From Candidatus Bathyarchaeota archaeon (GTDB lineage: Archaea; Thermoproteota; Bathyarchaeia; Bathyarchaeales; Bathycorpusculaceae), in NCBI GenBank assembly GCA_025059195.1, contig JANXDU010000006.1, positions 1 to 64,000 of the forward strand: a stretch of DNA of 64,000 bases, given 5' to 3'. Below are positions 47,524 through 48,246 of this stretch, piece after piece. The notes beneath the pieces are model-generated. The model saw nothing but the letters and a program-made list of their open reading frames with translations. It made no database searches and was not told where the DNA came from. A program made the position numbers and the translations under genes. Each line of letters opens with the position of its first letter. Positions within the stretch are counted from its first letter, which is position 1.

Positions 47524-48246
47524 TTGGTGGGCTGTTTGGAAAGAGAATGGGAAAGACTCATTGAAAACCTAATACGAGAGGGGGTTCTCCGCACTCCCAA
47601 AGTGATAAAAGCGCTACGCTCTGTACCTAGGGCAAAGTTTCTACCTAAAAACATGCATCAATATAGCGCAGTGGACACACCTCTTCCAATTGGTTTTGGG
47701 CAGACAGTTTCAGCGCCACATAGCTTCAGCGAGCCTTTGCGCTGAGCTAGGCGAAACATGGTAGCCATCATGAATGAAGCCCTCCAATTGGAAGCAGGCC
47801 AAAAAGTCCTAGAGGTGGGGGCAGGCTCAGGGTGGCATGCAGCCACTATAGCTGAAATAGTGGCGCCCAGCGATGCCCCCCGAAGCGAATGGGGACACGT
47901 TTATACGGTGGAGATAATTGAAGGTTTAGCTGAGTTCGCCAGAAAAAACATCATGCGAGCGGGCTACGGAGACCGCGTAACAATAATATGCGCCGACGGT
48001 TCCATGGGATATCCAGAAAAAGCGCCGTACGACAGAATCCTAGTGACAGCAGCTGCACCAGACATCCCTCAACCATTAATTGATCAACTGAAACCCGGCG
48101 GGATAATGCTTATCCCTGTTGGAAGCGTTCACTTTTTCCAAAGCTTAATAAAAGCTACAAAGAGCGCCAACGGGAAAATTGGCCGAGAAAACCTTGGGGG
48201 AGTCGCTTTTGTGCCTCTAACTGGGCGTTATGGACACAAATTTTAA
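47524..48246 (+). CDS. pcm: Protein-L-isoaspartate O-methyltransferase, interrupted by an intron
   Basis: A SAM enzyme that repairs isoaspartyl residues in damaged proteins. The gene is split by 36 bases (47720-47755). Exon 1, 47524-47719, encodes up to FGQTVSAPH. Exon 2, 47756-48246, continues [15 protein letters not shown] and holds the SAM motif [13 protein letters not shown]. Joined, they give 228 residues colinear with known archaeal Pcm proteins, whose sequence at this point is SAPHMVAIM. Without removal, the frame meets TGA at 47743-47745 and yields 73 residues. TTG 47536 behind GGTGG is an alternative start. The predicted product needs RNA splicing; an ATG at 47758 would make a truncated protein without the N-terminal substrate-binding part. 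Confidence 0.88.
47720..47755 (+). other. Candidate archaeal bulge-helix-bulge intron in pcm, 36 nt
   Basis: The RNA can form a bulge-helix-bulge splice motif. The central helix is CGCC (47714-47717) with GGCG (47750-47753). The 5' bulge is ACA (47718-47720) and the 3' bulge AAA (47754-47756), three bases each on opposite strands. The inner helix is TAGCT (47721-47725) with AGCTA (47745-47749), continued by CAGCG/CGCTG after one bulged T, with an 8-nt loop. The outer helix is weak (G47713-C47757, then A-T and C-G after a bulged A). Cutting after the second base of each bulge removes 47720-47755 and gives CAC-ATG-GTA (His-Met-Val), the conserved sequence. A TGA lies in frame inside. Confidence 0.85.

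Follow-up and report, generated by a model that had tools for sequence, protein, structure and literature searches.

Positions 47524–48246 on the plus strand of the window (the whole stretch of 64,000 nucleotides that was analysed) hold the reading frame of pcm, the gene of the protein-repair enzyme isoaspartyl methyltransferase (PCM), which is broken by 36 nucleotides (Table 1). The frame starts near 47524, where TTG is the earliest possible and putative start codon. The upstream open reading frame (47524–47745) is ended by an in-frame TGA, and the downstream one (47758–48246) has ATG as its first codon. With ^ marking the splice sites, the junction context reads ...TCA GCG CCA C^ATAGCTTCAGCGAGCCTTTGCGCTGAGCTAGGCGAA^AC ATG GTA.... 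Without the 36 nucleotides the frame reads SAPH-MVAIM again, exon 1 ending in ...GQTVSAPH. The spliced product of 228 amino acids displays a nearly full-length match to PF01135 (PCMT; E = 4.6e-67), and alignment with the solved structure of P. furiosus PIMT (1jg1) is free of gaps at the junction, with an identical junction stretch. The initial annotation had placed an interruption of 36 nucleotides, TGA included, at this motif, and was correct to the base.

Table 1. Features of the interrupted pcm gene and of the predicted bulge-helix-bulge (BHB) motif, in window coordinates.
Feature	Position	Strand	Basis
pcm exon 1 (65 codons and first base C of the His codon)	47524–47719	+	ORF, PF01135, 1jg1 alignment
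Central helix, 5′ strand CGCC in exon 1, partner of 47750–47753	47714–47717	+	pairing in all 96 sequences, two of them with a compensatory A-U pair
Bulge 1 ACA, predicted cut AC^A between 47719 and 47720	47718–47720	+	junction fixed by His restoration
Predicted 36-nt BHB intron ATAGCTTCAGCGAGCCTTTGCGCTGAGCTAGGCGAA	47720–47755	+	96 distinct sequences of pcm interrupted at this base
Inner helix, 5′ strand TAGCT-(T)-CAGCG	47721–47731	+	covarying pairs
Inner helix, 3′ strand CGCTG-AGCTA	47740–47749	+	covarying pairs
In-frame TGA ending the unspliced reading	47743–47745	+	sequence, ORF list
Central helix, 3′ strand GGCG (intron end)	47750–47753	+	conserved pairing, covariation
Bulge 2 AAA, predicted cut AA^A between 47755 and 47756	47754–47756	+	conserved architecture, RNAalifold
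pcm exon 2 (AC of the His codon, then ATG, through stop)	47756–48246	+	ORF, PF01135, 1jg1 alignment, coding evidence

Both exons are under strong purifying selection (dN/dS of 0.02–0.11 for exon 1 and 0.02–0.06 for exon 2, between congeners or a family member), which identifies pcm as a working gene; the insert thus breaks up the coding frame of a gene for a functional protein. An intact second pcm accompanied by decay of the interrupted copy, which the initial annotation had named as a finding that would speak against an intron, was looked for and not found: the host genome holds no second full copy, its remaining PF01135 matches being partial methyltransferase matches.

For comparison, pcm was gathered from genome contigs and from 189 class-level genomes, and duplicates were removed before counting. 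An insert at exactly the same base is present in 96 distinct pcm sequences, and 47 are free of it. Among the inspected species-level genomes, 83 carry the intron and 24 lack it, the former spanning 11 families (our codes f1–f7, f9, f10, f15 and f16). The nearest named records of the host are Candidatus Bathyarchaeota, and the three other genomes of the host genus that were examined display the same interruption, with inserts of 31 or 35 nucleotides. Across the 96 sequences the insert measures 20–48 nucleotides (mode 31). Its length modulo 3 is 1 in 42 cases, 0 in 28 and 2 in 26, hence 68 inserts are not multiples of three. Readthrough is blocked in all 28 in-frame inserts and the remainder shift the frame, so that full-length PCM cannot be made from an unspliced message in any of the species. 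The insert is a single hairpin and has nothing of the ribozyme core, hundreds of nucleotides in size, of group I and group II introns.

All 96 sequences share one architecture, namely GC[G/A]CC[A/T]C, one bulge base, an inner hairpin, GG[C/T]G, two bulge bases, and ACATGR. A signal of the type cut by EndA, i.e. a 4-bp central helix flanked by a 3-nt bulge on each strand, is present in every one of them. The helices (CGCC/GGCG and TAGCT/AGCTA), bulges (ACA and AAA) and cut points of the initial annotation are all there as described, and the inner helix is extended by CAGCG/CGCTG past a single bulged T. The central helix pairs throughout, with a compensatory change from G-C to A-U in L030 (and its copy L128) and in L162, where the Ala codon GCA is matched by an intron end GGTG. 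Of the 480 cells of the first five inner pairs, 466 remain paired, versus 364 expected when the arms are shuffled between species (maximum 382), and 13–57% are kept when the arms are slid. Unguided RNAalifold analysis of 28 diverse sequences recovered the BHB core, with compensatory (double) changes at 9 of 12 pairs. A formal covariation count found 94.9% of cells paired, with a score of 0.618 versus 0.237 for shuffled and at most 0.144 for slid arms.

In the window sequence taken by itself the folding energy of the region is unremarkable (z = −0.95), and a slipped fold that pairs GUUUC with GAAAC is favoured over the BHB by about 1 kcal/mol (−21.0 vs −20.0). The significance of the motif hence derives from the comparison of 96 homologous sequences and not from the window alone; in the light of this comparison a chance origin is untenable. 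The full pair set of the slipped fold is kept in 32 of the 96 sequences versus 90 for the eight tested core pairs of the BHB, and the comparative analysis (pairing conservation, RNAalifold and covariation) sets the slipped fold aside. As a separate observation, exon base −10 (window position 47710) and intron base −2 (47754) pair in 93 of 96 sequences, in T-A and A-T forms, despite the BHB placing intron base −2 in a bulge. This pair belongs to the slipped helix, and may possibly reflect a competing helix or a single-clade effect.

The outer exon-exon helix is nearly missing, with one fixed G-C pair and a second pair in 34 of 96 sequences. The canonical hBHBh′ outer helix is therefore lacking, and the motif represents a relaxed (HBh′-like) form. 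In relaxed motifs that are cut by loop-bearing (alpha-beta)2 enzymes the outer helix is dispensable (PMC2738675, PMC12397907).

The protein itself demands the junction. A cut between the second and third base of each bulge, as is typical of EndA, followed by joining of C to AC, restores His in 96 of 96 sequences. Reading on into the unspliced insert replaces this His in 40 of them (by Leu in 27, Gln in 11 and Arg in 2). In species such as L048 (GCGCCTC^TT...GAA^ACATGG) no alternative nearby junction makes a His codon before the ATG. Moreover, the codons of the central helix are frozen in intron-bearing genes only: the Ala codon is GCG in 94 of 96 intron-bearing versus 21 of 47 intronless sequences (p = 1.3e-13, a descriptive value, as species are not independent), and the Pro codon is CCA or CCT only with the intron, while all four CCN codons are used in intronless genes.

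The host genome encodes both an endonuclease and a ligase, in the form of two EndA-family genes and RtcB. One EndA subunit (185 amino acids) is closest to EndA of Sulfolobus, Aeropyrum and Pyrobaculum, and has kept the His of the catalytic segment. Its residues K39-P40-K41 align with K44-P45-R46 of Aeropyrum, which constitute the crenarchaea-specific loop that has been tied to broad substrate recognition (PMC12397907). The other subunit (184 amino acids) is devoid of the catalytic-segment His, as expected of a non-catalytic partner. These features suggest an (alpha-beta)2-like enzyme. Introns in tRNA genes are predicted in the host genome as well (ARAGORN). Furthermore, a genome scan recovered a BHB intron of 33 nucleotides in the host cbf5 gene (L285; C3:1571–1603, minus strand), which lies in phase 1 in the codon of the catalytic Asp (GHGGTL^DPNVTG), displays a 4-bp outer helix (GGGA/TCCC), and occupies the position of proven crenarchaeal cbf5 introns (PMC2738675). 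Because splicing at this position is proven elsewhere, such splicing should work in the host cell. Among 30 Bathyarchaeia loci inspected, the host and 9 others (L286–L291, L302, L307 and L308) carry a cbf5 BHB intron of 18–36 nucleotides at the classical position. In the literature searched, the cbf5 intron is described from Desulfurococcales and Sulfolobales only (PMC2738675).

Taken together, we consider it very probable that the pcm insert is a genuine archaeal pre-mRNA intron of the tRNA-intron type, removed by EndA and joined by RtcB; comparison lends strong support to the BHB intron with exact splice sites that the initial annotation had proposed for this mRNA. In the proposed mechanism, the junctions of the transcript would fold into the relaxed BHB, in which exon 1 pairs over 4 bp with the end of the intron, a 3-nt bulge lies on each side of this helix, and the intron forms a hairpin. 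A two-subunit EndA would cut behind the second base of each bulge, and RtcB would then join C to AC, creating the His codon CAC, so that full-length isoaspartyl methyltransferase could be translated. The excised intron would probably form a small circle or be degraded. As its sequence drifts freely apart from the pairing, the intron is most likely a tolerated passenger and not a regulator.

Splicing might, on the other hand, be real and also serve as a regulated switch for the repair enzyme, which we regard as unlikely. Unspliced forms are never readable to full length and the intron is retained in many lineages, as would suit a switch. However, an unproductive unspliced message is a consequence of any intron and hence no evidence of one. 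Beyond the pairing itself, neither the length of the intron nor its loop and stem sequences are conserved, and close relatives keep pcm without the intron. The initial annotation had proposed an on/off switch on the grounds of an in-frame stop and an insert length divisible by three, which finds no support, given the 68 of 96 inserts of other lengths and the 31 or 35 nucleotides found in the congeners. It is similarly doubtful that the intron is more than a passenger and splicing-dependent expression of PCM a conserved regulatory step, for example by a temperature-dependent splicing efficiency that arises because the relaxed BHB is marginal and competes with GUUUC/GAAAC. If true, such a step would help to explain why the intron is retained in much of a class and the varying pair of exon −10 and intron −2.

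Translational bypassing or frameshifting, in which the ribosome would skip the hairpin on an uncut RNA and resume at AC-ATG, is far less probable still. A hairpin does interrupt the frame in every case, and cbf5 introns were formerly mistaken for frameshifting (PMC2738675). However, insert length modulo 3 varies freely, the conserved element is the EndA signal (the 4-bp helix with its two 3-nt bulges) and not a set of take-off and landing codons, and the point of resumption would fall within the His codon. The cbf5 BHB intron of the host, located where splicing has been proven in other archaea, speaks against bypassing as well. Just as improbable is a split gene with exon 2 translated separately from the ATG at 47758 and two polypeptides assembling. 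An ATG begins exon 2 in every species, but the same Met is part of the family motif in intronless genes too. The upstream piece would bear 2 to 31 unrelated tail codons and would lose the conserved His in 40 of 96 sequences, and the conserved pairing across the junction would be left without purpose. A pseudogene or a sequencing or assembly error, for which the stop and the broken frame would speak as customary signs of decay, is refuted by the selection on both exons and by the fact that 96 distinct sequences, taken from independent assemblies, share the break.

The cbf5 pre-mRNA intron of Desulfurococcales and Sulfolobales was reportedly described by Watanabe in 2002. The pcm intron differs from it in gene and in lineage (Bathyarchaeia), and is a predicted one; it is a separate intron in another gene and at another site, and the host carries both. 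The two are alike in being short BHB introns (19–44 nucleotides in cbf5 versus 20–48 in pcm) with an often unconventional BHB, a cut between bulge bases 2 and 3 and lineage-specific losses (Yokobori 2009, PMC2738675), and in lying in phase 1 within the codon of a conserved active-site residue. With the BHB introns of archaeal tRNA and rRNA the pcm intron shares the structural signal and presumably the enzymes. In contrast to these, its host RNA is an mRNA, so that exon codons form part of the splicing signal. The BHB intron in HVO_1309 of Haloferax (PMC7714728) likewise represents processing of an mRNA by EndA at a BHB, but is situated in the untranslated 5′ leader, whereas the pcm intron interrupts the reading frame.

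For two decades a BHB intron has been accepted in a single archaeal protein-coding gene, cbf5 (PMC7714728, 2020). In the literature covered, cbf5 provides the only confirmed case in a coding gene, next to the 5′-UTR intron of HVO_1309 (PMC7714728, PMC2738675); for other genes, Yokobori et al. refer to predictions that were unconfirmed (PMC2738675). A prior report of a pcm intron did not turn up in the literature searched, which excluded most subscription papers and all preprints, in line with the initial annotation, which knew of none. Hence, pcm is apparently the second archaeal gene with a BHB intron in its coding sequence after cbf5, with probable priority. While the class of mechanism was already known, the host gene, the lineage and the unusually wide distribution are new.

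Occurrence in 11 families of Bathyarchaeia indicates that archaeal pre-mRNA splicing is not an oddity of one gene. With more than 80 species concerned, nature has provided an experiment on how such introns are gained, are precisely lost and co-evolve with a relaxed EndA. That the pcm and cbf5 introns share phase 1, and that each falls into a codon within a highly conserved segment, bears on the question of intron gain. On the practical side, gene finders applied to genomes of Bathyarchaeia will yield split or truncated models of pcm (and cbf5).

Genome-wide scanning covered 1.363 of the 1.370 Mb of the host genome. BHB shapes that join two open frames numbered 144, versus 146 in a non-pairing control, and a further scan for BHB motifs in genes likewise displayed no excess (73 versus 81 in the control); blind scanning alone thus cannot find such introns. 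The sole additional real case to stand out was cbf5. A candidate at C8:40210–40244, at the end of a gene resembling oxaloacetate decarboxylase/pyruvate carboxylase, was rejected, as a relative (L316) displays a conserved coding C-terminus (WVLAWRQSLAE) followed by a natural stop. This site (G000; L315 and L316) does hold a strong hairpin in the last codons, with stem differences that are compensatory between the two species while WVLAWRQSLAE is kept. A second candidate, C15:860–887, was rejected because the downstream gene's own ATG sits within the supposed intron.

In a quickly built maximum-likelihood tree, which covers 142 spliced proteins, the intron trait needs at least 10 changes, versus 39 when shuffled. 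The intron-bearing sequences and the intronless ones nested among them all lie on one side of a branch with weak support (48), the other side of which holds intronless Desulfurococcales, Pyrodictiaceae, Brockarchaeota and Hydrothermarchaeota. This distribution suggests that the intron is old within Bathyarchaeia, probably with one gain followed by several precise losses; transfers may possibly have contributed. Exact losses are seen in L015 and L016, which are intronless at 84–85% protein identity and miss exactly the insert stretch. In one genus (g5, family f1) most genomes, many of them more than 90% complete, gave no pcm match at the threshold used, which may point to a possible loss of the enzyme. 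Finally, the intronless pcm of L197 (G079:C22:134700–135736) displays a frame break near residue 112, distant from the intron site, which may be due to a sequencing error, to decay or to another interruption.
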